From a virus, in IMG/VR virus record IMGVR_UViG_3300017776_000071, positions 1 through 33,894 of that record: a stretch of DNA of 33,894 nucleotides. The stretch is one strand, 5' to 3'. Below the pieces are notes generated by a model. The model saw only the letters and a program-made list of their open reading frames with translations. It did no database searches and was not told the origin of the DNA. Made by a program: the position numbers and the translations under genes. Shown in pieces: positions 7,786-27,570 of the stretch (its first letter is position 1; each line of letters starts with the position of its first letter).

Positions 7786-8262
7786 ATGAACAGAGCAACG
7801 GAAAGGCTCGGCAGATCAGGTGAATATTTCGCAGCTTCCGTTCTTTCCATGCAAAGTGATTCTGTTTTATTAATGCCACCTGGTGCGGAAGCAGACATAC
7901 TATTTGATTACGAGCAAAAGTTTCTCAAGGTACAAGTTAAAACAAAATCACATCGACACGAATCAGAAAAAGATTTATGGAAGTTTGATATTAGGCGTGG
8001 CTCAAGTTCCAGAGAAAGATTCTTCCGAGAAGGCCAGATAGATTTGTTTGCACTGTGTTGTACTGAGTATAATAAAGTTTTGTTTTATCCGTTTCACGAA
8101 GTCACTAATGCTGAAGGTAACTCCAAAACAGCGATTTATATTAAAGACAATATTATCCGTAGTAATGATAATGAAGCTAGTCTTGAAGCCGCGTTAAAAT
8201 CAATTACAGAACACAATAATCAGTTACAATACAACTATGGACGATATAATAAATTTAATTAA
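7786..8262 (+). CDS. PD-(D/E)XK-like nuclease, possible
   Basis: A 158-residue protein. Near the start is GRSGEYFAASVL with Glu13, then AEADILFDYE with Asp37, then LKVQVKTKS with Gln50-Val-Lys52. This E ... D ... (E/Q)xK spacing is that of small PD-(D/E)XK nucleases such as the intron-associated or resolvase-like endonucleases, with Gln in place of the usual Glu. The rest (FDIRRGSSSRERFF, IDLFALCCTEYNKVLFYPF) also fits that fold. It sits six bases behind the last ejection gene and overlaps the next gene by 26 bases, an unusual place for a nuclease. It might be packaged or act late. Activity is inferred. Confidence 0.55.
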   Translation: MNRATERLGRSGEYFAASVLSMQSDSVLLMPPGAEADILFDYEQKFLKVQVKTKSHRHESEKDLWKFDIRRGSSSRERFFREGQIDLFALCCTEYNKVLFYPFHEVTNAEGNSKTAIYIKDNIIRSNDNEASLEAALKSITEHNNQLQYNYGRYNKFN

Positions 8263-8587
8263 TCAGGTAGGTTTTCCAGTAGCAAGTGCATTAGGATTAG
8301 GATTTTTTATTTGGAAACTGATTAACCGCATTATTGATGGTATGGAACAAAAGATAGATGTGGTGGATGAGAAAGTAGATGCCAGTCTAAACGCGATGGA
8401 AGAACGCCTGAGTACCAAGCTAGACGCGCAATATGGCATAATAGTGGCATTGATAGATCGTGTGAGAGCCTTAGATAATCAGACCATACGTCAAGATGTT
8501 TTATTAAAAACATTACTTGGTATTCCTAATTTAATTGAAATAGATAAGGTGGCAAAAGCAGACCGTGAAGATCAGCGTAAAGATTAG
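8237..8587 (+). CDS. Small membrane protein, YvrJ-like / holin-like
   Basis: A 116-residue protein. The N-terminus (DDIINLINQVGFPVASALGL) runs into a hydrophobic helix (GFFIWKLI, to about residue 30), which resembles the short YvrJ-type and BhlA-like membrane proteins. The rest is a long coiled coil (KIDVVDEKVDASLNAMEERL). One membrane helix plus a cytoplasmic coiled coil is compatible with a holin-like or antiholin-like role, but similar proteins also occur with no known function. No ribosome site is visible; translation is probably coupled to the upstream gene (26-base overlap). It overlaps csgF by 23 bases. Confidence 0.55.
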   Translation: MDDIINLINQVGFPVASALGLGFFIWKLINRIIDGMEQKIDVVDEKVDASLNAMEERLSTKLDAQYGIIVALIDRVRALDNQTIRQDVLLKTLLGIPNLIEIDKVAKADREDQRKD

Positions 8588-9008
8588 TTTATTAATATTA
8601 TTTGCAAGCAATTTATTGGCAGATGAAATATTATTCAAGTTTAAAAGCCCTAGCTTTTCAGGTGTTAATACTTCTTCACATTTCTTAACAATAGAGAATC
8701 AAGAGAACACCAGAAAGCAAACGGTTAAAGATGAAATAAAAGCCTACCAAGATGAACTAGCCAGAGATGCTGATAATACAACACTGGCAAGATTTATTAG
8801 AAACTTAGAAAGTCGTATTTACGCACAGCTAAGTAGACAAATGGTAGAACAATTATTTGGTCAGACACCACAGAAACAGGGTAAATTAGAGTTAGAAGGT
8901 AATACGATTGAATATATTGTGGAAGCAGAAACGATCACTCTCACTATCACAGATGAGGTGGGCGGGCAGACTAATATTACTGTGCCTATCGGGGATTTTA
9001 CTTTCTAG
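8565..9008 (+). CDS. csgF: Curli assembly protein CsgF
   Basis: A 147-residue secreted protein; bacterial CsgF is about 138. It starts with GTG, the only usable start, inside the upstream gene. The signal peptide is MKISVKISLLILFASNLLA, with cleavage before Asp20. The mature start ILFKFKSPSFSG matches the CsgF hallmark pattern (F-x-F-x-x-P-x-F-x-G) that plugs into CsgG, and SHFLTIENQENTR follows where CsgF has FLLNSAQAQNS. The end (IEYIVEAETITLTITDEVGG, then TNITVPIGDF) matches the C-terminal strands. In bacteria CsgF binds the outer side of the CsgG pore and helps place the fibre nucleator. I am confident of the family from the motif order. Confidence 0.88.
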   Translation: MKISVKISLLILFASNLLADEILFKFKSPSFSGVNTSSHFLTIENQENTRKQTVKDEIKAYQDELARDADNTTLARFIRNLESRIYAQLSRQMVEQLFGQTPQKQGKLELEGNTIEYIVEAETITLTITDEVGGQTNITVPIGDFTF

Positions 9009-9774
9009 TTGCACTCCTCGATATACAGCATTACTAGAAGAAGGTGGTATTCCTTATATCGTAATAGAAAAAGCCTCTATTTTAGATTTGCAAAACCAAG
9101 AATTAAAGAACGTACCACCAGCAAAAAGAAAACCTGTGGTTGCTATTTATCCAAACAGTTTTTTGGATCAAACAGGCCAAAGAAAAAGTAATGGATCGTT
9201 TGCTTTATTCAGTACGGCAATCACGCAAGCACCTGAAGCATTTCTTATCAGAGCTTTAAAACATGCTGCAAATGGAGAGTTTTTTCAAGTTGCAGAACGA
9301 GTAGGTTTAGATAGTTTAACTAAAGAAAGGCAATTAATACGCTCTACCAGGCAAACTTTTGAAGAGGAGAGTGCGGTAAAACCTCTTTTGTTGGCGGGAT
9401 TGCTATTGCAAGGCGCTGTGCTGTCCATAGATACCAACATTAGAAGCGGTGGAATGGGTGCGCGCTACTTAGGTATAGGAAGCTCTAAAGAATATCGGGA
9501 AGATTTGATTACTATTTCATTACGCTTGGTTTCTGTTTCTACAGGTGAAGTTTTAATTGAAGTCTTAGTAAATAAAAGTATTATCTCGGTAGGGCTATCA
9601 CAAGATTTATTTCGGTTTATATCTAATGGCACAAAGTTAGTTGAAATTGAAGGTGGTGCAGCAGAAAACGAAAGCACATCAATAGCATTACAGCAAGCAA
9701 TAGAAGAGGGGGTGTTAGAAATAATTAAAATAGGTATTAGTAAGAGGTACTGGCAATATGAAAAAGTTAATTAG
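8953..9774 (+). CDS. csgG: Curli secretion lipoprotein and outer-membrane pore CsgG
   Basis: From ATG 8953 the protein is 273 residues, close to the usual 277. Residues 1-19 form a lipoprotein signal with lipobox L17-S18-S19-C20. Family hallmarks follow in order: PVVAIYPNSFLDQTGQRK, then SFALFSTAITQAPEAFLIRA (the FSTA of the pore constriction, with the inner Phe kept), LDSLTKERQLIRSTRQ, SIDTNIRSGGMGARYLGIG, LRLVSVSTGEVL and the C-terminal helix ending SKRYWQYE. CsgG forms a nonameric outer-membrane channel that exports curli subunits without added energy. An upstream ATG at 8908 is possible and gives a longer n-region. The gene overlaps csgF by 56 bases. Confidence 0.92.
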   Translation: MRWAGRLILLCLSGILLSSCTPRYTALLEEGGIPYIVIEKASILDLQNQELKNVPPAKRKPVVAIYPNSFLDQTGQRKSNGSFALFSTAITQAPEAFLIRALKHAANGEFFQVAERVGLDSLTKERQLIRSTRQTFEEESAVKPLLLAGLLLQGAVLSIDTNIRSGGMGARYLGIGSSKEYREDLITISLRLVSVSTGEVLIEVLVNKSIISVGLSQDLFRFISNGTKLVEIEGGAAENESTSIALQQAIEEGVLEIIKIGISKRYWQYEKVN

Positions 9775-10465
9775 TTTGTTTTTATTATTATCGTATAGCG
9801 CAATAGCTGACGATAACGAAATCTATGTTGACCAGGTCGGGGCATCGGCTAACATAGACATTGAGCAGCTGGGATCAGGAAATTTAGTGGGCGGTTTAAA
9901 TAGTGCAGCTGGCAGTATGACAGCGTTTGATTTGGATGGAACATCTATGTCATTAGATTTGAATTTAATTGGCAATAATAATAAATATCTTGGGGATATA
10001 AACGCAGATTCATTCACTGGCATATTTGACTTTGATGGTGACAGCAACCAGTACACGATACAGGTTGATCCTACTAATACTTATAGTGCAGATTCATCTA
10101 ATGTAAATGTAGACGTAGATGGCAGTAGCAATACTTTCACACTTGATCTAGCGACTAATGCGTTAGCTAGTGGCGCAGATGTAGATACGATAGTGCAAGG
10201 TTCAAGTAACACAGTAAACATTGATTTGGATATAGACTCAGCAACTAACTATATGGATATAGATGGAGATTCAAATACAATAAATTATGATGGAGATGGT
10301 TATGCTTCTGGCTATTTTAAATTGGATCACACAGGTAGTTCCAGATCTTTCGACATTGAACAACAATCGACATTGGCCTCGGACTACTTGGAAGTATATT
10401 CTTCTGGGTCTAATGGCTCAGTTTGTATTAATCAAGACGATCAAGGCACAAGCGTTGGATGTTGA
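9758..10465 (+). CDS. Secreted curlin-like repeat protein
   Basis: A 235-residue protein with AGAGG about 10 bases before its ATG. The signal peptide is MKKLISLFLLLSYSAIA. Mature residues 23-42 read YVDQVGASANIDIEQLGSGN, which carries two Q-x-G-(x)-N units like the CsgA/CsgB repeat. Further repeats are looser: FDGDSNQYTIQVD, VDGSSNTFTLDL, VQGSSNTVNIDLD, IDGDSNTINYDGD. The protein is acidic, with almost no Lys or Arg after the signal, and ends with two Cys (VCINQDD...VGC) that might pair. It is probably the substrate of the CsgG channel encoded next to it. It is not a standard CsgA; the amyloid property is inferred. Confidence 0.75.
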   Translation: MKKLISLFLLLSYSAIADDNEIYVDQVGASANIDIEQLGSGNLVGGLNSAAGSMTAFDLDGTSMSLDLNLIGNNNKYLGDINADSFTGIFDFDGDSNQYTIQVDPTNTYSADSSNVNVDVDGSSNTFTLDLATNALASGADVDTIVQGSSNTVNIDLDIDSATNYMDIDGDSNTINYDGDGYASGYFKLDHTGSSRSFDIEQQSTLASDYLEVYSSGSNGSVCINQDDQGTSVGC

Positions 10466-11480
10466 TATAGGAAGTATTACAGAACTAAACGGAAACACCA
10501 GAGTAGTAAGAGATAAACCTTACACCAGTGAGATTGATTTCTCACTTAACTCTATGGATAGACTAGAGACTGCTGCGGGCAGAATGGGTGTTACTTTCCG
10601 TGATGATACTACTATTAGATTGACAGAGAATTCCAATGTTGTAATTGATTCTTTTGTATTTGACCCTGATCCAAGCAAATCGACTATGGCCCTATCATTT
10701 GTTAAAGGTACTGGTCGTTTTATAAGCTCTAAAAGTAAACGTATACCTAAAGAAAATATTAAGATTAGAACAAACTCTGCCACCATTGGTATTCGTGGTA
10801 CTGACTTTACTATTACGGTTTCAGAGACAGGTGCTTTAGTCATACTATTACCTGATGAGTTTGGTGAAAGTTCAGGAGAGATTGCTGTTACTACAGCACT
10901 TGGTCAGGTAATACTAAATAAACCCTATGAAGCTACTACAGTTTATAATTTTGAAACTGCTCCAACACCCGCTGTTATATTAGATTTGACCTTGGATATG
11001 ATTGACAACATGTTAATTGTTAATCCACCTCAAACTAAAGAACTAGAAGCTAATGAAGCCAATGCAGTAGCAGATAATATTCTTGATGTTGACTTCTTAG
11101 AATTTGATGAGCTTGATACTGATGATCTGGCTGAAGATGATTTAGAGTATACCGAACTTGATATAGATTATCTTGCAGCTAATTTTCTGGAAGATTTGTT
11201 AGATGTAATTCAAGAAGTCGATGAATTAAGTAAAGCAAATCAAGCCTTATCATCTGATGGCATCAAAGGTACTGACATTGGTTATGACAGTGATACCCAG
11301 ATAAATACTTTTGTTGATGATAGCCAGGTTAAATTTATTAGACAGGTCGAAAATAATTTACAAATGCAAGTATCAAAAGATGGTTCATACAACATAAGAA
11401 TCGAGCAAGGCGGTAAAGTAAATGCAGTCTCTACTAACGGAGGCAGTAGTTCTACTATCAATATCAAACAAGGAAGTTAA
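10413..11480 (+). CDS. FecR-domain protein with curlin-like C-terminus
   Basis: From ATG 10413 the protein is 355 residues. The start MAQFVLIKTIKAQA is a weak export signal; the frame is open further upstream but offers no better start nearby. A FecR domain covers about residues 45-130: RLETAAGRMGVTFRDDTTIR, LSFVKGTGRFIS and TNSATIGIRGTDFTITV are typical. An acidic stretch of repeated FLEFDELDTDDLAEDDLEY type follows. The last 33 residues (GSYNIRIEQGGKVNAVS, then STINIKQGS) look like curlin or CsgB repeats. FecR domains here probably act as an extracytoplasmic beta domain. It may anchor or nucleate the fibre made by the preceding protein. Confidence 0.7.
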   Translation: MAQFVLIKTIKAQALDVDIGSITELNGNTRVVRDKPYTSEIDFSLNSMDRLETAAGRMGVTFRDDTTIRLTENSNVVIDSFVFDPDPSKSTMALSFVKGTGRFISSKSKRIPKENIKIRTNSATIGIRGTDFTITVSETGALVILLPDEFGESSGEIAVTTALGQVILNKPYEATTVYNFETAPTPAVILDLTLDMIDNMLIVNPPQTKELEANEANAVADNILDVDFLEFDELDTDDLAEDDLEYTELDIDYLAANFLEDLLDVIQEVDELSKANQALSSDGIKGTDIGYDSDTQINTFVDDSQVKFIRQVENNLQMQVSKDGSYNIRIEQGGKVNAVSTNGGSSSTINIKQGS

Positions 11481-11749: not shown

Positions 11750-11779
11750 ACAACAGTCGTGTATAAATGGGAAGGGATC

Positions 11780-11983
11780 ATGAGAGAAGAAAAAGATTAT
11801 TCTAACTTTATGACCACAGTGGAATTAGCCGCTAGGTGGAAGAAGTCACCGAGAACTTTAGAGAATTGGCGAGTGCAAGGCATTGGCCCAAACTTTTATA
11901 AAATAGGTGCTGCGGTGCTATACAAGGTTAATGAAATAGAAGAACTTGAAAGCAGTTCATCCAACGCTAATAAAACCAAATGA
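11780..11983 (+). CDS. HTH (excisionase/MerR-like) DNA-binding protein
   Basis: A 67-residue protein from ATG 11780, preceded by GGGAAGGGATC. The core MTTVELAARWKKSPRTLENW followed by RVQGIGPNFYKIGAAVLY is the classical helix-turn-helix of the HTH_17/excisionase-like group. A polar tail follows (ESSSSNANKTK). It is the first gene of the rightward early operon and might regulate the divergent promoter before it. No integrase is present, so an excision role is unlikely. Confidence 0.8.
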   Translation: MREEKDYSNFMTTVELAARWKKSPRTLENWRVQGIGPNFYKIGAAVLYKVNEIEELESSSSNANKTK

Positions 11984-16802: not shown

Positions 16803-17890
16803 AAACTAATAGAACATTGTATGGCGATTGCCGAGAAACATTAAAAGAATTGCCAGAAAAATGTATTAACACTTGTATTACTTCACCGCCTTATTGGGGT
16901 TTGCGTGATTATGGAACTGGTGAATGGATTGGTGGCGATCCGAATTGCCCTCACATGAGAACTACAAAAATAAGTAAAGACACATCAACTGGTCATAAAG
17001 CTATGTTTGAGCAAGGCAATGTTGTTGGTGATGCTATTTATAAAAACGAATGTCCAAAATGCGGTGCAGTTAGGAAAGACAGTCAATTAGGTTTAGAGGA
17101 AACTCCAGAAGAATTTGTTGAAAACTTAGTTAAGGTATTTAGAGAGGTAAGACGTGTGTTGTGTGATGATGGTACAGTTTGGCTTAACTTGGGTGACAGT
17201 TATTACAATTACAGACCAGGCAAAGGGCAATCATTGATAAAACAAACTGTCAGTAACACGAATCAAGATTTACCTCAAGAAGTGGCAGGACGAGCCAATA
17301 AGATCGAAGGATTAAAAGAAAAAGATTTAGTTGGCATACCTTGGCGAGTAGCCTTTGCTTTACAAGCTGATGGTTGGTATTTAAGACAAGATATTATCTG
17401 GCATAAACCTAATCCAATGCCAGAGAGTGTGCAAGATAGATGCACTAAGTCACATGAATATATTTTTTTGCTAAGTAAAAACCCTAAATATTATTTTGAT
17501 AATGAAGCGATTAAGGAAGATGCTGAAACTGATCCAGTAAAAAGAGATAAAATGGGAGAGGGGTATCAAGCTGATTACGCTAAAGGTAAAAGGTTTAGTG
17601 AGGGAGAAAGAGTCTGGGGTTCTACTAAGAAAAACAAACGCTCTGTCTGGACTATAACCACTAAACCATTTAAAGGCGCACACTTTGCTGTATTTCCACC
17701 TGATTTAATCGAGCCATGTATATTGGCGGGTTGCCCTAAAGATGGTGTGGTACTTGATCCATTTATGGGTAGCGGAACAACAGGAATGGTAGCACAGGAA
17801 TTGGGCAGAAAATGGATTGGTTGCGAGTTAAATGCAGAATATATAAATTTACAAAAGACAAGAACAGCACAACAAGTTTTAGAGTTATAA
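16793..17890 (+). CDS. DNA methyltransferase (N4/N6, beta class)
   Basis: A 365-residue enzyme with AAGGAGATAAA before the ATG. Motif IV is TSPPYWGLRDYG (residues 30-41) and motif I is DPFMGSGTTG (residues 322-331); the IV-before-I order is the beta class. TSPPYW is typical of N4-cytosine and some N6-adenine enzymes. An insert with CPH and CPKCG (about residues 51-90) may bind zinc. LNLGDSYYNY and DIIWHKPNPMPESVQDR also fit. No restriction endonuclease accompanies it, so it probably protects phage DNA or marks it; the target is unknown. Confidence 0.88.
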   Translation: MGLETNRTLYGDCRETLKELPEKCINTCITSPPYWGLRDYGTGEWIGGDPNCPHMRTTKISKDTSTGHKAMFEQGNVVGDAIYKNECPKCGAVRKDSQLGLEETPEEFVENLVKVFREVRRVLCDDGTVWLNLGDSYYNYRPGKGQSLIKQTVSNTNQDLPQEVAGRANKIEGLKEKDLVGIPWRVAFALQADGWYLRQDIIWHKPNPMPESVQDRCTKSHEYIFLLSKNPKYYFDNEAIKEDAETDPVKRDKMGEGYQADYAKGKRFSEGERVWGSTKKNKRSVWTITTKPFKGAHFAVFPPDLIEPCILAGCPKDGVVLDPFMGSGTTGMVAQELGRKWIGCELNAEYINLQKTRTAQQVLEL

Positions 17891-17921
17891 TAAAATGGTA
17901 ACTACATCTAAGGACAACAAC

Positions 17922-18092
17922 ATGAAATGTTGGCATTGCCAAACGGATTTAATCTGGGGTGCAGATCACGAAATTAGCGCAGACAATCCCATCGCTGATC
18001 CAGATGAATATTGCATGGTAACGAATCTATCTTGCCCCGCTTGCAACGCATATGTCGAAGTTTATTTGCCAAAGGAATTAAATCATGAGTAA
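17922..18092 (+). CDS. Small zinc-ribbon protein
   Basis: From ATG 17922, preceded by AAGGACAACAAC, it is 56 residues: MKCWHCQTDLIWGADHE at the start and LSCPACNAYVEVYLPKE near the end, giving two CxxC pairs about 32 residues apart. A longer start at 17895 has no ribosome site. Zinc-ribbon proteins of this size are common in phage early operons; the function is unknown. It overlaps the next gene by 8 bases. Confidence 0.7.
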   Translation: MKCWHCQTDLIWGADHEISADNPIADPDEYCMVTNLSCPACNAYVEVYLPKELNHE

Positions 18093-18183
18093 AGGCAGTC
18101 GCCCTAGAAAGATATTAGATAAGAAAAAATACCGCGATAATTGGGATAAAATATTCCATAAAAAGAGCAAAAAGAAGCAGTAA
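18085..18183 (+). CDS. Tiny basic protein (32 aa)
   Basis: AAAGGAATTAAATC precedes ATG 18085, and the stop is at 18181-18183. The product begins MSKGSRPRKILDKKKYRDNW and ends KKSKKKQ, highly basic with a single aromatic cluster (YRDNWDKIF). Very small proteins with this SKGS...YRDNWDKIF style occur in many phage early regions. It might bind nucleic acid. It ends the early operon just before the repeat array. Confidence 0.65.
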   Translation: MSKGSRPRKILDKKKYRDNWDKIFHKKSKKKQ

Positions 18184-18184
18184 T

Positions 18185-18236
18185 GTTGATGAAGTTTTCA
18201 TCAACCCCTGATGAAGTTTTCATCAACTGTTGATGA
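18185..18236. repeat. 22-bp palindromic operator-like repeat array
   Basis: Three copies are spaced exactly 22 bp apart, at 18185, 18207 and 18229. The first is a perfect 9-bp inverted repeat (GTTGATGAA, three bases, TTCATCAAC). The second keeps 7 inner base pairs of the palindrome with changed outer bases. The third is a half site (GTTGATGA). A spacing of about two helix turns puts the sites on one face of DNA. It lies directly before a -10 element and the gene for an HTH protein. This is the layout of a repressor operator with cooperative binding. Confidence 0.65.
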
Positions 18237-18254
18237 GGAATCGGTCATACAGAC

Positions 18255-18265
18255 TATACTATACT
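18255..18265 (+). promoter_or_regulatory. Candidate promoter, tandem TATACT -10 boxes
   Basis: TATACT occurs twice, at 18255-18260 and 18260-18265, about 100 bases before the HTH gene at 18368. A possible -35 (TTGATG, 18230-18235) lies inside the last repeat unit, with long 19-24 base spacing. A protein bound to the array would therefore overlap the promoter. Confidence 0.45.
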
Positions 18266-18268
18266 AAT

Positions 18269-18296
18269 AGAGAGATGCGCCTGTGGCGCACTCTCT
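18269..18296 (+). promoter_or_regulatory. Leader hairpin before the HTH gene
   Basis: A 12-bp stem (AGAGAG and TGCGCC against GGCGCA and CTCTCT) with a one-base bulge and a three-base loop lies at the probable transcript start. It is followed by TAATTTAAGTTTG, not a clear U-run. It could stabilise the leader or act as an attenuator. The remaining leader (18297-18355) repeats GTTTGAGTATTAGC twice. Confidence 0.5.
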
Positions 18297-18367
18297 TAAT
18301 TTAAGTTTGAGTATTAGCTTTAGTTGTAGTTTGAGTATTAGCATGAGTTTAGGTTTTAGGAGAGAGG

Positions 18368-18802
18368 ATGAACCAGTATTGGTGGATTGAGAGTGGTGGC
18401 GGAGTGCCGAGCGAGGAGCAAGCAAGCGGGTGTGTGCGGTATGCAGTTTCGCAGTATTCGTATTCAAAAGTGAAGCAAGCGGTATGGCGAATCTATCGCT
18501 TGAATCTGGATCGAAAAGATTTAAACGCTTCCGATAAGGTGGTGCTGTATTGCTTGTGCGAGCGTTTCCGCGTGCAAAGTATGAGCAGTACGGATGCGGT
18601 GGGGTATCTTAGTAAGATGTGTGGTATGAATCGCACGACAGTGGGTAAAAGTATTCAGCGGTTAGTGGATGCGGGGTTGATTTGGATTGTGGAAGAGGGG
18701 GAAGTGCGGAAGGCGCATAAGCGGTTGGAAGCGCGGAAGTATTTTAAGAAGCATTTCCTGCTAGTAGGGCTGAGTTATATGCTTGCGGAAGGGGGTAGCT
18801 AG
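18368..18802 (+). CDS. Winged HTH DNA-binding protein (HTH_36/Rep-like)
   Basis: A 144-residue protein with TAGGAGAGAGG before its ATG. The centre reads LNASDKVVLYCLCERF, then AVGYLSKMCGMNRTTVGKSI, then QRLVDAGLIWIVEEGEVRKA, a winged helix-turn-helix as in HTH_36 and replication-initiator N-terminal domains. No catalytic domain is attached. It stands alone behind its own promoter and the 22-bp array, so it may be an autoregulator that binds that array. A replication-initiator role is a second possibility. Codons here are more GC-rich than in the surrounding genes. Confidence 0.7.
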   Translation: MNQYWWIESGGGVPSEEQASGCVRYAVSQYSYSKVKQAVWRIYRLNLDRKDLNASDKVVLYCLCERFRVQSMSSTDAVGYLSKMCGMNRTTVGKSIQRLVDAGLIWIVEEGEVRKAHKRLEARKYFKKHFLLVGLSYMLAEGGS

Positions 18803-18818
18803 GGGGTGGTAGAGAAAT

Positions 18819-18851
18819 GCCCTCACAGAGGCTTGTGGTGCGTGTGAGGGC
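18819..18851. terminator. Inverted repeat between convergent genes
   Basis: GCCCTCACA (18819-18827) is perfectly repeated in inverse orientation as TGTGAGGGC (18843-18851), with a 15-base loop. It lies between the end of the rightward HTH gene and the end of the leftward small-gene operon. No strong U-run follows on either strand, so a two-way terminator is plausible but not certain. Confidence 0.4.
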
Positions 18852-18868
18852 GGGGGGAAGGTGGGTGG

Positions 18869-19051
18869 TTAGGTGTGGTGCTTGTATTTTATCCTTAACC
18901 AGTTGTTATACTTTTTGTGGTATTCGTATTCGCTTAATATATCTTTTTCATGATATTGCTTTTTTTCATCCAGATATCTGCGGTACATTCTCTCTAAGAA
19001 TATTTGAAAGTTGGAACGATTATCGCGCCACCTGTTTTTTAACTTATGCAT
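18869..19051 (-). CDS. Hypothetical basic/aromatic small protein
   Basis: From ATG 19051 it has 60 residues, starting MHKLKNRWRDNRSNFQIFLE and rich in Arg, Lys, Tyr and Glu. The start overlaps the previous stop by 8 bases (ATGCATAA), which supports real translation. The family is unknown. It is the last gene of the leftward operon. Confidence 0.55.
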   Translation of the reverse strand: MHKLKNRWRDNRSNFQIFLERMYRRYLDEKKQYHEKDILSEYEYHKKYNNWLRIKYKHHT

Positions 19052-19214
19052 TGTCACGCTCTTGGTTATCTAAAAAATCCTCGCGTAACGCGGTAGCGTA
19101 TTTAAGTAAGGCCTGTTTCGCAATTGCAGTATTTGGTATCCAGGCGCGTTGTCTGGTTAATCCGCGTTGCTGTTGTACTTGTTCATAACGTTTTGTATAT
19201 TTATATGTTGACAT
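19044..19214 (-). CDS. Hypothetical small protein (56 aa)
   Basis: ATG at 19214 follows GGGAAAGAG at good spacing; the stop is at 19044-19046. The product starts MSTYKYTKRYEQVQQQRGLT and contains RQRAWIPNTAIAKQALLKYA, probably two helices with a basic face. It is below the usual length limit of gene callers. Family unknown. Confidence 0.6.
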   Translation of the reverse strand: MSTYKYTKRYEQVQQQRGLTRQRAWIPNTAIAKQALLKYATALREDFLDNQERDNA

Positions 19215-19235
19215 CTCTTTCCCTTTTTAATTTGT

Positions 19236-19523
19236 TTATAGTTCAGCTTGTTGTTGCATTTGTTGCTGTCTGAGTAATTCCTCTTCAGCTTCAATGCGGT
19301 TTTTGTTTACGCTGTTTTGTAATACTGAGATCAGCAAGTTTTTATCCTTGCCGTTTAAGTCTCGAAACGTGTTAATGATTGTTAATATTTTTTCATTGGT
19401 ACTCATAATTGTATCCTCTTTAGCTATTAGGTTGAGTTTACTAATAAGCGAATCCTTCTCTAGTTCACTTAATAATTCATTGCTAATCACTTGATTAATC
19501 TTCTGTATTATTGAGTGTCTCAT
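19236..19523 (-). CDS. Hypothetical helical protein
   Basis: From ATG 19523 it is 95 residues, all helical, with a Gln-rich end (RQQQMQQQAEL). ATG 19541 is also possible. An internal in-frame ATG at 19406 has a better ribosome site (AGAGGATACAATT) and would give a 56-residue form (MSTNEKILTIINTFRDLNGK at its start), so two products could be made from one frame. Family unknown. Confidence 0.5.
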   Translation of the reverse strand: MRHSIIQKINQVISNELLSELEKDSLISKLNLIAKEDTIMSTNEKILTIINTFRDLNGKDKNLLISVLQNSVNKNRIEAEEELLRQQQMQQQAEL

Positions 19524-19530
19524 AAGTGCA

Positions 19531-19686
19531 TCATATATCATCATAATCATATATGTCAAAATCATGATCCCAGTCGCAGTGCTCACAAAAATATCCATGG
19601 AAATTTAAGCCCACATCATATTCTGGAATTTGAAATTGAATATCTTCACTGCCACATTCAGGACATTCATCGAATAGATCAGTCAT
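19531..19686 (-). CDS. Small acidic zinc-ribbon protein (51 aa)
   Basis: ATG at 19686 lies in the last codons of the upstream gene (8-base overlap); the stop is at 19531-19533. The product begins MTDLFDECPECGSEDIQFQI and continues to CEHCDWDHDFDIYDYDD. The pairs CPEC and CEHC, 22 residues apart, form a zinc ribbon, and the tail is very acidic. Such proteins are common phage early factors with unknown targets. Confidence 0.7.
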   Translation of the reverse strand: MTDLFDECPECGSEDIQFQIPEYDVGLNFHGYFCEHCDWDHDFDIYDYDDI

Positions 19687-19879
19687 TGGAAACCTCCGTT
19701 GCGCGTTCACTTAAATCTTTAAGTAACTCTAAAGAGTTCTCTAATTCCCATTGAGGTAAGTTACCTACTGGAATCATAAATAAAGATTGATTGTCATCCT
19801 CCATAGCCTTTAAAGTTTTTATAATTGTATCTAAAACATAATCTATTTTTTCTATATCGTTCATTAGCTTTTCCATCAT
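19679..19879 (-). CDS. Hypothetical small helical protein (66 aa)
   Basis: ATG at 19879 overlaps the upstream stop by 4 bases (ATGA). The product starts MMEKLMNDIEKIDYVLDTII and has a middle QSLFMIPVGNLPQWELENSL; it is acidic and mostly helical. Family unknown. The overlap on both sides supports translation. Confidence 0.6.
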   Translation of the reverse strand: MMEKLMNDIEKIDYVLDTIIKTLKAMEDDNQSLFMIPVGNLPQWELENSLELLKDLSERATEVSND

Positions 19880-20049
19880 TCGCCTCTCTTTTTACGTTGG
19901 TTTAAAATATCCCTAACGCGGTTTATTGAGTACCATTTTTTTGAAATGGTAGAATCCTTCATAAATCTATACTCGTTATATAACTCATTCCTTAAATGGT
20001 ATAAGTGATCTTCAAGCTGCTCTATTGTTAAGCTGTTATAACTTCTCAT
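19876..20049 (-). CDS. Hypothetical small protein (57 aa)
   Basis: The start ATG 20049 is chosen because it lies in the end of the upstream gene, with AAAGAGAGAG before it; a longer frame exists but lacks such a site. It starts MRSYNSLTIEQLEDHLYHLR and ends NQRKKRGE: a helix with a basic end. Family unknown. Confidence 0.55.
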   Translation of the reverse strand: MRSYNSLTIEQLEDHLYHLRNELYNEYRFMKDSTISKKWYSINRVRDILNQRKKRGE

Positions 20050-20197
20050 TGTTTTCTCTCTCTTTGTTAATAAAACTGATTCTAATGTTATCTGCACGCT
20101 CAATAACGCGTTTTAGTTCTGGCGATATGTTCTGTTTCTTTGCTACTTTGTTGAACTCGCGCCATTGGTTTAGTATTTGTGTATCTTGGTTAATCAT
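20036..20197 (-). CDS. Hypothetical small protein (53 aa)
   Basis: ATG 20197 overlaps the upstream stop by 8 bases, and the stop TAA is at 20036-20038. The product starts MINQDTQILNQWREFNKVAK and ends FINKERENNEKL. It overlaps the next start by 14 bases. Family unknown; the coupling at both ends is the main support. Confidence 0.55.
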   Translation of the reverse strand: MINQDTQILNQWREFNKVAKKQNISPELKRVIERADNIRISFINKERENNEKL

Positions 20198-20408
20198 GGC
20201 TAATTTTAACGATTATTATATCCCACCCAAAAGGGCTACATTCAACCGCAGTTTCGCCAATGTTAAGGGCTATTAAATCGCTAAAACTATGCTCCTGTAA
20301 ATTCCAATCATTTTTATTCTTAATAAAATCTTCTAATAAAACAGTTTTACTTAATTGATTTCCGTATGATTCCTCGTTCCAGATTACTTGAAATTTCATC
20401 TCCTTCAT
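20190..20408 (-). CDS. Hypothetical protein (72 aa)
   Basis: The start at 20408 (MKEMKFQVIWNEESYGNQLS) follows GGGAGTAAGTGAG; the frame extends upstream to 20474 but that part lies in a hairpin region. The product looks like a small alpha-beta protein with an acidic middle and the end DIIIVKISHD. Family unknown. Confidence 0.55.
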   Translation of the reverse strand: MKEMKFQVIWNEESYGNQLSKTVLLEDFIKNKNDWNLQEHSFSDLIALNIGETAVECSPFGWDIIIVKISHD

Positions 20409-20437
20409 CTCACTTACTCCCGTTATTAAACATAATA

Positions 20438-20463
20438 AAGCACACCAGGTGAATGGTGCGCTT
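20438..20463 (-). terminator. Intergenic hairpin 1 of the leftward operon
   Basis: On the minus-strand transcript a 9-bp stem with an 8-base loop forms (AAGCGCACC with GGTGTGCTT). One pair is G-U in RNA but a mismatch on the plus strand. The following bases are U-rich but broken (TATTATG), so a partial terminator or processing site is possible. Confidence 0.45.
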
Positions 20464-20470
20464 GATATGC

Positions 20471-20824
20471 TCAACTATTGATGTTTGAGATTGCCTCGTT
20501 ATAACCAATAACAAAGCCGAACATTTCTTCCTTGGAATTGAATCTCTTTAAATCATGCCCATAATAATGACCTAAAGTAATAGAATGTTTATTAAATAAT
20601 AATCCTTCTTGTTTTACGCTTTTCTTATTGGCATGAGAGTCATAACCATGCTCAATAATATTCTTTTCAAATAATGCGCATTGAAAGGCATAATAATATT
20701 TATTATCACCGCGTAATGAGAAAGTGATTTTCTCTTTGGCTTGTTTAAACTCGATTTCTATATCTTTATTAAATCGATCATGCATTTGTTCTAATGTTTC
20801 TTGTTGTAGTTTTACTGCTTCCAT
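20471..20824 (-). CDS. Hypothetical early protein (117 aa)
   Basis: ATG 20824 follows GAGAGGGTAAGAAG. The product begins with a charged helix (LEQMHDRFNKDIEIEFKQAK) and continues to a mixed part with FVIGYNEAISN near the end. It has no motif that I recognise. Its leader resembles that of the gene at 21158-21472. Confidence 0.6.
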   Translation of the reverse strand: MEAVKLQQETLEQMHDRFNKDIEIEFKQAKEKITFSLRGDNKYYYAFQCALFEKNIIEHGYDSHANKKSVKQEGLLFNKHSITLGHYYGHDLKRFNSKEEMFGFVIGYNEAISNINS

Positions 20825-20840
20825 CTTCTTACCCTCTCTC

Positions 20841-20861
20841 TTGGTTAAAATTAATCTTAAT
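20841..20861. repeat. 21-bp exact direct repeat, copy 1
   Basis: The 21-base block from 20841 (it begins TTGGTTAAAATTAATC) is repeated without change at 21105-21125. In both places it lies before the ribosome site of a leftward gene and after a hairpin, so it forms part of a repeated leader module. Confidence 0.7.
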
Positions 20862-20862
20862 G

Positions 20863-20887
20863 GATTACCGCCTGTTAGACGGCAATC
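20863..20887 (-). terminator. Intergenic hairpin 2 of the leftward operon
   Basis: On the minus strand GATTGCCG pairs with CGGTAATC over 8 bp with a 9-base loop; one pair is G-U only on this strand. The 21-bp repeat follows directly. Regulatory hairpin or weak terminator; no clear U-run. Confidence 0.4.
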
Positions 20888-20899
20888 TATAAGACTAAT

Positions 20900-21088
20900 C
20901 TATATGAGATTTTCGTTAGCGTAGTTACTCAAGATTGAAACAATCTCGCCAGTTGGTCGCGTTGCATTTTCAATTAGAAGTTTTTTAAATTCTAAATCTT
21001 CACAACACATATTAAAAGAAGCACAATTGTTACCCTCAAAAATACTAGCGATTAAGTCTAGTTTATCGTTTTTTGCTCTTGTTCCCAT
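20900..21088 (-). CDS. Hypothetical small protein (62 aa)
   Basis: ATG 21088 follows GAGGAAAGGAAA. The product starts MGTRAKNDKLDLIASIFEGN and has NCASFNMCCEDLEFKKLLIE in the middle with three Cys. Family unknown; probably one small folded domain. Confidence 0.6.
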   Translation of the reverse strand: MGTRAKNDKLDLIASIFEGNNCASFNMCCEDLEFKKLLIENATRPTGEIVSILSNYANENLI

Positions 21089-21104
21089 TTTCCTTTCCTC
21101 TCTG

Positions 21105-21125
21105 TTGGTTAAAATTAATCTTAAT
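21105..21125. repeat. 21-bp exact direct repeat, copy 2
   Basis: Identical to 20841-20861. It follows a hairpin (21127-21150) and precedes the ribosome site of the gene starting at 21088, the same order as in copy 1. Confidence 0.7.
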
Positions 21126-21126
21126 A

Positions 21127-21150
21127 AAACGCACCTAAGAAGATGCGCTT
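21127..21150 (-). terminator. Intergenic hairpin 3 of the leftward operon
   Basis: On the minus-strand transcript AAGCGCATC pairs with GGTGCGTTT over 9 bp with a 6-base loop, using two G-U pairs that are mismatches on the plus strand. TATTAAG follows. The sequence AAGCGCA is shared with hairpin 1. Confidence 0.45.
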
Positions 21151-21157
21151 GATAAGA

Positions 21158-21472
21158 TCAACTGTTATTGAGGTAATCGGCTACAATTTCTTCACCGATA
21201 ATATAGGTATACATGTTAACCACTCTCTCTGGGTCGCTTAAATCTGTGTATACTTCACCAAAATTTGATTGCTCATAATCTTTAATATGATTAATGACTT
21301 CAAAAGCCATATCACCTAACCATTTTTTAGCTTGGTATGTACCAATAATGTAATAATCAGTGTTAAAGATTTCATGGTGTAAATCGTCCGAGTTAGATTC
21401 AATCCATTCTTTATCATAATTAATAATGTGGTCATTAAAATGCTCTTTTATTTCTTCTTTCTTATAGTCCAT
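21158..21472 (-). CDS. Hypothetical early protein, first gene of leftward operon (104 aa)
   Basis: ATG 21472 follows GAGAGGATAAGAAG. The product is acidic, starts MDYKKEEIKEHFNDHIINYD and contains the aromatic run DYYIIGTYQAKKWLGDMAFE. Acidic proteins of this size at the head of early operons are sometimes antirestriction or host-takeover proteins, but I see no proof here. It is served by the -10 element at 21505-21510. Confidence 0.65.
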   Translation of the reverse strand: MDYKKEEIKEHFNDHIINYDKEWIESNSDDLHHEIFNTDYYIIGTYQAKKWLGDMAFEVINHIKDYEQSNFGEVYTDLSDPERVVNMYTYIIGEEIVADYLNNS

Positions 21473-21501
21473 CTTCTTATCCTCTCTTTTGGTTAGTGTT
21501 G

Positions 21502-21515
21502 TGCATTATAATGCA
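21502..21515 (-). promoter_or_regulatory. Leftward promoter with palindromic -10
   Basis: TGCATTATAATGCA is a perfect 14-bp palindrome that contains TATAAT, read leftward at 21505-21510. Its start would lie about 25 bases before the ATG at 21472. TTTACA on the minus strand, 15 bases upstream, is a possible -35. The palindrome could be an operator. Confidence 0.5.
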
Positions 21516-21579
21516 TGAGTGCCTCTGTAAATGCAAGCATATATATGATGTTTCTATAGTTAAATGTCACGAAATCGCT

Positions 21580-21585
21580 TATAAT
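21580..21585 (+). promoter_or_regulatory. Rightward -10 element before the terminase genes
   Basis: TATAAT at 21580-21585 lies 32 bases before the small terminase start. No clear -35 is seen. Together with the leftward element at 21505 it makes the 21473-21617 gap a divergent promoter region. Confidence 0.4.
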
Positions 21586-21617
21586 CAGGCATATGAGGGA
21601 CTTAACGAGGGGTTGCA

Positions 21618-22097
21618 ATGGGAATAAAAACCACCAAAAAACGCGCTAAATTAGGTAGAAAGCGCATTGATTTGAGCGATAAAGAAACTTTAGAGAAAAT
21701 AAAACATCTTGCGGGTCTTGGATTATCGGATAAAGCAATCGCAACATCCTTGGGGTGTTCAAGGGCTACTATATTAAGACGTAAACGTGATTCTGCAACA
21801 TTTGATACAGCTATAAAGGAAGGAAAGATAAGAGCAATTGAAAAAGTAAGCAATGCGCTCTATGACTCCGCAACTGGTCGCACTGGCGAAAAGCCTTCAA
21901 CCGCAGCACAAATATTCTTTCTCAAAAATCGAGGCGCAAGCGAGGAGCTCGGAGCGTGGAAGGATAGACTAGAGCAGACTACCAACTACAGCGTTAACCT
22001 AGCCGACATCATCGGCACGCGCAAGCAAGCCCTGGCGCACGCAAGCACGCCCGCAATAGCGCCTAATGATGCACTCATAATTAACAATGATGATTAA
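21618..22097 (+). CDS. terS: Terminase small subunit
   Basis: A 159-residue protein with GAGGGGTTGCA before ATG. The N-terminal basic part (KKRAKLGRKRIDLS) is followed by the HTH GLSDKAIATSLGCSRATILR, then a helical oligomerisation part (AIEKVSNALYDSATGR) and a tail ending IINNDD. This is the small-terminase layout, which recognises phage DNA and feeds the large subunit encoded after the origin-like gap. The HTH could bind the palindrome just downstream. Confidence 0.78.
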   Translation: MGIKTTKKRAKLGRKRIDLSDKETLEKIKHLAGLGLSDKAIATSLGCSRATILRRKRDSATFDTAIKEGKIRAIEKVSNALYDSATGRTGEKPSTAAQIFFLKNRGASEELGAWKDRLEQTTNYSVNLADIIGTRKQALAHASTPAIAPNDALIINNDD

Positions 22098-26653: not shown

Positions 26654-27136
26654 ATGAAATTTAAGTTTATTAAAAATATTATTGGCGCAGTAGCGCCATC
26701 TATCGGCACAGCATTGGGTGGGCCTATGGGTAATATGGCAGCCAACATTGTCGCAGAAGCATTAGGTTGTGAGCCTACTCCAAAAAAGATAGAGCAAGCA
26801 GTACAAGCTGCAACTCCAGAACAATTAGCTGAACTAAAAAAACTAGATACTGACTTTGAAATAAAAATGAAAGAGTTAGAAGTTGATTTATACGCACTAG
26901 AAACTAAAGATATCCAAGATGCAAGAAACAGGTTTTCTAAAGATTGGACATCTAGGGTTATAGGCGTAACTGTAGTGGGTGGTTTTATGGGATATATCTT
27001 TCTAATCACGCTCCAGCCTCCAGAGCAGAACAGTGAAGCATTGATTAACTTAGTCCTGGGATACCTTGGAGGACTTGCAAGTGCTATTATTTCTTTTTAC
27101 TTTGGTGCAAGTAATACTGGAAACAAAGAAGAATGA
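26654..27136 (+). CDS. Holin (GTA_holin_3TM-like)
   Basis: A 160-residue protein. The N-terminus is moderately hydrophobic (FIKNIIGAVAPSIGTALGG), then a charged helical part (EQLAELKKLDTDFEIKMKEL), then two clear membrane helices (VIGVTVVGGFMGYIFLITL and LVLGYLGGLASAIISFYFG) and a short charged end. This layout fits the GTA_holin_3TM group. It directly precedes and overlaps the lysozyme by 4 bases, so it is likely the canonical holin of the lysis cassette. Confidence 0.8.
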   Translation: MKFKFIKNIIGAVAPSIGTALGGPMGNMAANIVAEALGCEPTPKKIEQAVQAATPEQLAELKKLDTDFEIKMKELEVDLYALETKDIQDARNRFSKDWTSRVIGVTVVGGFMGYIFLITLQPPEQNSEALINLVLGYLGGLASAIISFYFGASNTGNKEE

Positions 27137-27570
27137 ATATATCTAAAGAAGGTATTGATTTAATTAAACATTTTGAAGGTTGCAGACTTGAAGCCTACGA
27201 AGATGCAGTAGGTGTACCTACAATTGCCTATGGCAGAATTAAAGATGTCAAGATGGGTGACTCTTGCACACAAGCGCAAGCGGAAGCGTGGCTTGATGAA
27301 GAACTGCATGAATATGAAGGTTATATCAATGATGCTGTAACTGTTGCATTAACTCAAAATCAATTCGATTCTCTGGTATCATGGGTTTATAATTTAGGCC
27401 CAAGTAATTTAAAATCATCTACGATGTTAAAAGTATTAAATAAAGAACAGTACGCTGACGTTCCAGAGCAAATACAAAGATGGAATAAAGCGGGCGGTAA
27501 AGTTTTAGAGGGATTAACTAAGAGAAGAAATGCAGAAGCATTACTATTCGAGGGTAAAGCATGGACATAA
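27133..27570 (+). CDS. Lysozyme (endolysin, GH24)
   Basis: A 145-residue T4/P22-type lysozyme. KHFEGCRLEAYEDAVGVPTI holds the catalytic set: Glu15, then Asp24 (8 residues between), then Thr30 (5 between). Later WVYNLGPSNLKSS and LTKRRNAEALLF match the C-terminal lobe. It has no signal peptide, so release needs the holin. It cleaves the peptidoglycan glycan bond. Confidence 0.93.
   Translation: MNISKEGIDLIKHFEGCRLEAYEDAVGVPTIAYGRIKDVKMGDSCTQAQAEAWLDEELHEYEGYINDAVTVALTQNQFDSLVSWVYNLGPSNLKSSTMLKVLNKEQYADVPEQIQRWNKAGGKVLEGLTKRRNAEALLFEGKAWT

Follow-up and report, generated by a model that had tools for sequence, protein, structure and literature searches.

Curli modules carried by phages are widespread in the ocean, and proposals for their purpose run from aggregation and exclusion to uptake and lysis. 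The locus described here raises the question of what such a module builds, and to what end, when a phage carries it. The window (the whole stretch of DNA that was analyzed, 33,894 bases) is an IMG/VR record containing portal, terminase, capsid, primase and endolysin genes. Identity to known phages did not exceed 46% for the portal protein and 49% for TerL, and the backbone belongs to a lineage other than that of HTVC023P-type podophages; relatives belonging to the HTVC023P group were also present, an example being L087 (terminase 59–61%). The window gave no integrase match, and it retains an excisionase-like gene at 11759-11983. The region 17890-21618, about 3.7 kb in length, has few and short open frames, which is unusual given the size of the phage. 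Scans of promoters and terminators gave no more sites than were found in shuffled sequence. L085 and L087, which are filed as Candidatus Pelagibacter MAGs, are phage-like contigs with the curli cassette, and L087 additionally carries endolysin, spanin and terminase genes.

The preliminary description of this DNA placed a four-gene curli block at 8565-11480. Matches based on Pfam, fold and motif evidence bore out the presence of CsgF, CsgG, curlin-like and FecR genes at that place, while the start of the block had to be moved one gene upstream, to 8237. Neighboring genes overlap one another throughout the cassette thus bounded (8237-11480). The cassette genes, and two further genes outside it that bear on its function, are as follows.

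8237..8587, + strand: CC, first gene of the cassette; coiled-coil protein of 116 aa with a single membrane helix at its N-terminus
8565..9008, + strand: CsgF, secreted, 147 aa; PF10614, E 1.6e-17, above the curated cut-off
8953..9774, + strand: CsgG, outer-membrane lipoprotein pore, 273 aa; PF03783, E 3.6e-45 (scored on the open frame 8908-9774), above the Pfam cut-off
9758..10465, + strand: exported curlin-like protein of 235 aa that has a signal peptide and is predicted to fold as a beta-solenoid; hot spot of allele exchange
10287..11480 (open frame), + strand: FecR-domain exported protein with a curlin-like tail; PF04773, E 1.5e-11
26654..27136, + strand: holin-like membrane protein, outside the cassette; phrog_1544 (unknown function)
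27133..27570, + strand: endolysin, outside the cassette; phrog_7 endolysin, E 1.4e-57

The channel genes are the best defined part of the cassette. The profile search placed 8953-9774 in CsgG, as had been proposed, and the closest solved structure to the window protein is E. coli CsgG (E 2.8e-36). Its start is likely the ATG at 8953, yielding MRWAGRLILLCLSGILLSSC, and the signal peptide and lipobox (LLSSC) are as first reported. On reading of the pore-lining loop, the FSTA stretch is retained in phage CsgG proteins, and the tyrosine of the E. coli loop (KPYPASNF) is not conserved in them. CsgF has an N-terminus of the CsgG-binding type, DEILFKFKSPSFSG, and matches E. coli CsgF chains weakly (E 0.21). 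The absence of CsgE also held, in that PF10627 had no match across 22 phage records in a search whose control does find E. coli CsgE; CsgE is likewise missing from published alphaproteobacterial and phage curli systems. In the CsgG tree, sequences from viral contigs cluster (32 rows, support 100/99) separately from the myophage pair. No bacterial donor was placed by this tree, the sampled Alphaproteobacteria being 39–45% identical. A 1499-base "Salmonella phage" csgG record was set aside as an unannotated fragment of 2x coverage.

The gene upstream of csgF matches phrog_18771 (E 1.7e-15), and proteins of HTVC008M and Melnitz match the same family; the two small genes preceding csgF in those phages belong to the CC family. 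Copy form varies among loci, CC being either a single 116-aa protein or a pair of short paralogs, the latter as in HTVC008M and Melnitz. A gene named HK, sometimes in two copies, has been described before CsgF (PMC9599517), and its position, size and copy number suggest that it is probably CC. No kinase domain was found in CC with Pfam, and HATPase_c, which matched in every one of 14 control genomes, had no match in 22 phage records, among them HTVC008M; we therefore rejected a histidine kinase identity for the upstream gene. CC matched a holin PHROG weakly (E 0.011 for the window, 1.1e-4 for Melnitz) and had no Pfam holin match. The protein would sit in the inner membrane.

The two remaining genes encode candidate substrates. 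The preliminary description of a secreted curlin-like repeat protein was upheld with respect to secretion and fold, the protein having a signal peptide and a predicted fold similar to that of phage proteins carrying the name "Curlin associated" (E 1.4e-5, TM 0.79), but the repeat itself scored below the cut-off in the window (Curlin_rpt, E 0.068). Curlin_rpt matched 4 of 25 relatives, with a best value of 1.1e-4. The AlphaFold2 model (mean pLDDT 85.6) aligned with solenoids including SufB/SufD and putative adhesins at Z up to 16.7 (VIA-align), although the solenoid is a common fold and these matches give no function; a PDB Foldseek search with the model returned nothing at E below 0.3.

A FecR-domain protein with a curlin-like end was confirmed by the PF04773 match and by a tail motif that is kept in relatives. 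Its start codon, TTG 10356 or another, is located within the curlin-like gene, the mature part begins at about 10455, and the signal-peptide end ...AQA is conserved in most relatives. In the last 50 residues, the curlin-type motif Q-x-G-x-x-N occurs in 23 of 24 relatives, compared to 0.04 expected per sequence. Within the window alone the motif was not significant in the curlin-like protein (p 0.09) and was not called significant in the FecR protein (p 0.04), so that its significance comes solely from conservation in relatives. The structure prediction (pLDDT 36.5) was left unused. The FecR domain follows the signal peptide, and neither a cytoplasmic N-terminal domain nor any other domain was found in the protein, which therefore lacks the layout of a FecR anti-sigma regulator, whose FecR domain is preceded by such a cytoplasmic domain and a membrane anchor. 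When the FecR profile was searched in 289 alphaproteobacterial genomes, the best matches lay within long open frames; in ten of these that were examined, roughly 110–320 residues precede the domain, and RTX, cadherin or FG-GAP repeats occur in several. Judged by sequence, the closest cellular relatives of the FecR protein appear to be large surface proteins, not regulators. The exported architecture and these nearest relatives led us to reject a role as iron regulator, and the protein probably acts as a partner with a structural, anchoring or CsgB-like role. Parts of the phage module that were earlier read as regulators resemble structural surface proteins.

Comparison of related contigs demonstrated that the five genes behave as a unit. 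The order CC-CsgF-CsgG-curlin-FecR was constant in 80 CsgG loci and in 66 of 69 CC loci (the relatives with sufficient downstream sequence, in which csgF follows CC), and about 150 viral loci overall have this fixed gene order. The four genes are missing from L143, L144 and L145 and present in L146 and L148, with flanks mostly at 92–97% nucleotide identity, and the break in the first three begins at the stop codon of CC and ends where the holin-like gene starts, i.e. it falls at gene boundaries. Within the lineage of the window itself, the slot flanked by the PDDEXK gene and DUF3310 lacks the block in L201-L205 and L207-L209, carries all five genes in the window, in L003 and L220 and in others, and holds a tyrosine integrase in L219 (3483-4604) and L232 (4231-5289). 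Two of these records, G313 and G314, have CC-CsgF-CsgG-curlin-FecR at another position, downstream of the portal gene; behind the cassette, G314 has a CHASE2 cyclase, then a GTA-type holin and an M15 endolysin. Because slots may be empty or filled with an integrase, and because the genes are found at other placements, the cassette moves as one unit between different locations, and the channel is inherited or lost jointly with its substrates. The curli-less slots of L143 (3126-3274) and L145 (3083-3230) contain several direct copies of about AAAATGACATTTTGTCAGTTTTT, each bearing the palindrome TGACA-TTT-TGTCA, which may represent operator sites or scars. In some of the window's relatives, though not in the window itself, a CHASE2-adenylate/guanylate cyclase gene lies directly 3' of FecR (L238:5998-7785).

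To quantify selection on the cassette, we compared CsgF, CsgG, curlin-like and FecR genes among relatives and obtained median dN/dS values of 0.08–0.11, with dS near saturation; all four genes are under purifying selection. Within this conserved block, one gene stood apart. The window and L003, compared in 150-base steps, were 91–100% identical outside 9751-10500 and 69–83% identical within it, which corresponds to the curlin-like gene; identity of that gene itself was 69–77%, and its dS was 1.9 versus 0.04–0.15 in the neighboring cassette genes. Such a jump in dS points to replacement through recombination. Of 61 pairs in which CsgG identity reached 92% or more, and which are not independent of each other, 10 from several lineages had the curlin-like gene over 10 points lower than CsgG as well as FecR; applied to FecR and to CsgF, this test gave 0 and 1, respectively. 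In the pair L058 and L059 the diverged gene was CsgF (80.8%), with the curlin-like gene at 100% and CsgG at 98.1%. Between phages that are 97–100% identical on either side, the curlin-like gene drops to about 70%, and these alignments suggest that the gene for the exported curlin-like protein is swapped between near-identical phages, with the pore and FecR genes conserved.

Taken together, these results are best explained by a phage-borne, reduced type VIII (curli-type) export cassette that displays proteins on the infected cell, a reading to which we assign a probability of roughly 0.6. CsgG, by homology, would form an outer-membrane channel on which CsgF sits; the curlin-like and FecR-curlin proteins, given their signal peptides, which relatives retain, would reach the periplasm via the host Sec system, exit via CsgG and be displayed on the cell surface. 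The preliminary proposal that the phage makes its own channel with its own substrates is supported; its further point, that this takes place late in infection, derives from gene order and strand, by which expression is probably late, alongside structural and lysis genes. The payoff would most likely be an altered cell surface, through aggregation of neighboring cells or exclusion of competing phages, and the displayed protein may be exchanged among phages by recombination while the channel stays conserved. Confidence in this explanation is lowered by the missing CsgE, by the sub-threshold Curlin_rpt score in the window and by the lack of clumping among Melnitz-infected cells (PMC9004378).

A lysis function is the strongest competitor to surface display, although we consider it improbable. 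The CsgG pore would then permeabilize the envelope late, in the manner of a pinholin or secretin, which is the proposal made for Melnitz, and the curlin-like proteins would be secondary. Of the 27 loci flanked by 3.5 kb in both directions, 22 have lysis-type genes beside the cassette, a count in which contigs are partly redundant and some genes are holin-like by position only. A homologue of the window's holin-like gene adjoins the cassette in many relatives, CC is kept beside lysis genes in cassette-less phages, and of G313 and G314, in both of which the cassette follows the portal gene, the latter has it just upstream of its holin and endolysin. Nevertheless, cassette-less phages with 92–97% identical flanks retain the holin-like gene and endolysin, L087 pairs the cassette with an endolysin and two spanin-like genes, and the window has its own separate holin-like/endolysin pair (26654-27570), in which the first gene overlaps the start of the second by 4 bases. 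A lysis role is less likely for these reasons, and it leaves the conservation of both exported proteins with the pore unexplained. Opening of the outer membrane for release, one of the three aims that the preliminary description listed, is accordingly the least supported of them, given the separate pair and the lysis genes kept by block-less phages.

Somewhat less probable again is that the surface protein acts specifically by excluding competing phages or altering receptor access, and not by aggregating cells. The substrate gene alone is a hot spot of exchange, as expected of a surface specificity factor, and the lack of clumping in Melnitz infections (PMC9004378) fits this view, but genes placed in the late or lysis region would come late for such a role; moreover, exclusion is a purpose inside the surface-display explanation rather than a different machine. 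We regard as distinctly unlikely the suggestion (PMC7029224, PMC9599517) that CsgG/CsgF works during infection as a pore through which large nutrients or cofactors are taken up. Lack of CsgE may leave this pore ungated, and FecR has been taken as iron-related by the published authors, but an uptake pore would leave the conserved exported proteins and their allele exchange unexplained, and the window FecR resembles surface proteins, not iron regulators. That the cassette is host DNA misjoined to a phage contig, as the preliminary description had considered, or decaying cargo, we reject as having almost no likelihood, since the same block recurs in other metagenomes and in independent contigs (L001, which is identical; L003, 33885 bases long; L197), is carried by more than 100 viral contigs and is under purifying selection (dN/dS about 0.1).

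Within surface display, it is conceivable, and we put this forward tentatively, that the cassette is a mobile system in which conserved CsgG/CsgF exports an exchangeable beta-solenoid that is anchored by the FecR-curlin protein and swapped by recombination, resulting in a phage-specific coat rather than ordinary amyloid curli. If so, phages would swap their displayed protein much as bacteria do with surface antigens. Near-identical phages that naturally differ in having or lacking the cassette make the purpose of phage curli testable.

Compared to the curli system of E. coli (csgBAC, csgDEFG), the window shares the CsgG pore and CsgF, but is without CsgE and has a substrate that is weakly curlin-like. 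We know of no E. coli counterpart of the FecR-curlin protein. Phages offer closer parallels, and the statement in the preliminary description that curli genes have been mentioned for some marine phages is borne out by the literature (PMC7029224, PMC9004378, PMC9599517). CsgF/CsgG were described in pelagimyophages in 2020 (PMC7029224), and Melnitz was reported in 2022 with curli genes, the idea of a pinholin, and infected cells that did not clump (PMC9004378). HTVC008M (KC465899) and Melnitz (MZ577097) have the same gene order as the window, with identities of 28% for CC, 40–46% for CsgG and 36% for FecR; they differ in being T4-like myophages that have CC in two copies, an additional curlin-like gene and a cyclase, and their curli genes have no lysis cassette alongside within the stretch read. 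Nine HTVC023P-type podophages, also from 2022, have the order HK-CsgF-CsgG-CsgA/B-FecR, to which some add a second curlin and adenylate cyclase (PMC9599517). With these podophages and the pelagimyophages (PMC9599517) the window shares the order of small gene(s)-CsgF-CsgG-CsgA/B-FecR and the absence of CsgE, while it differs from the HTVC023P-type T8SS region in having a backbone of another lineage and neither adenylate cyclase nor second curlin; the published HK and regulator readings (PMC9599517) were not supported in the loci examined here. Phage curli modules are thus already known, and the window adds a carrier from another backbone lineage. What goes beyond earlier work is comparative evidence on the mobility of the cassette, on what the HK and FecR genes encode and on the exchange of the exported protein.
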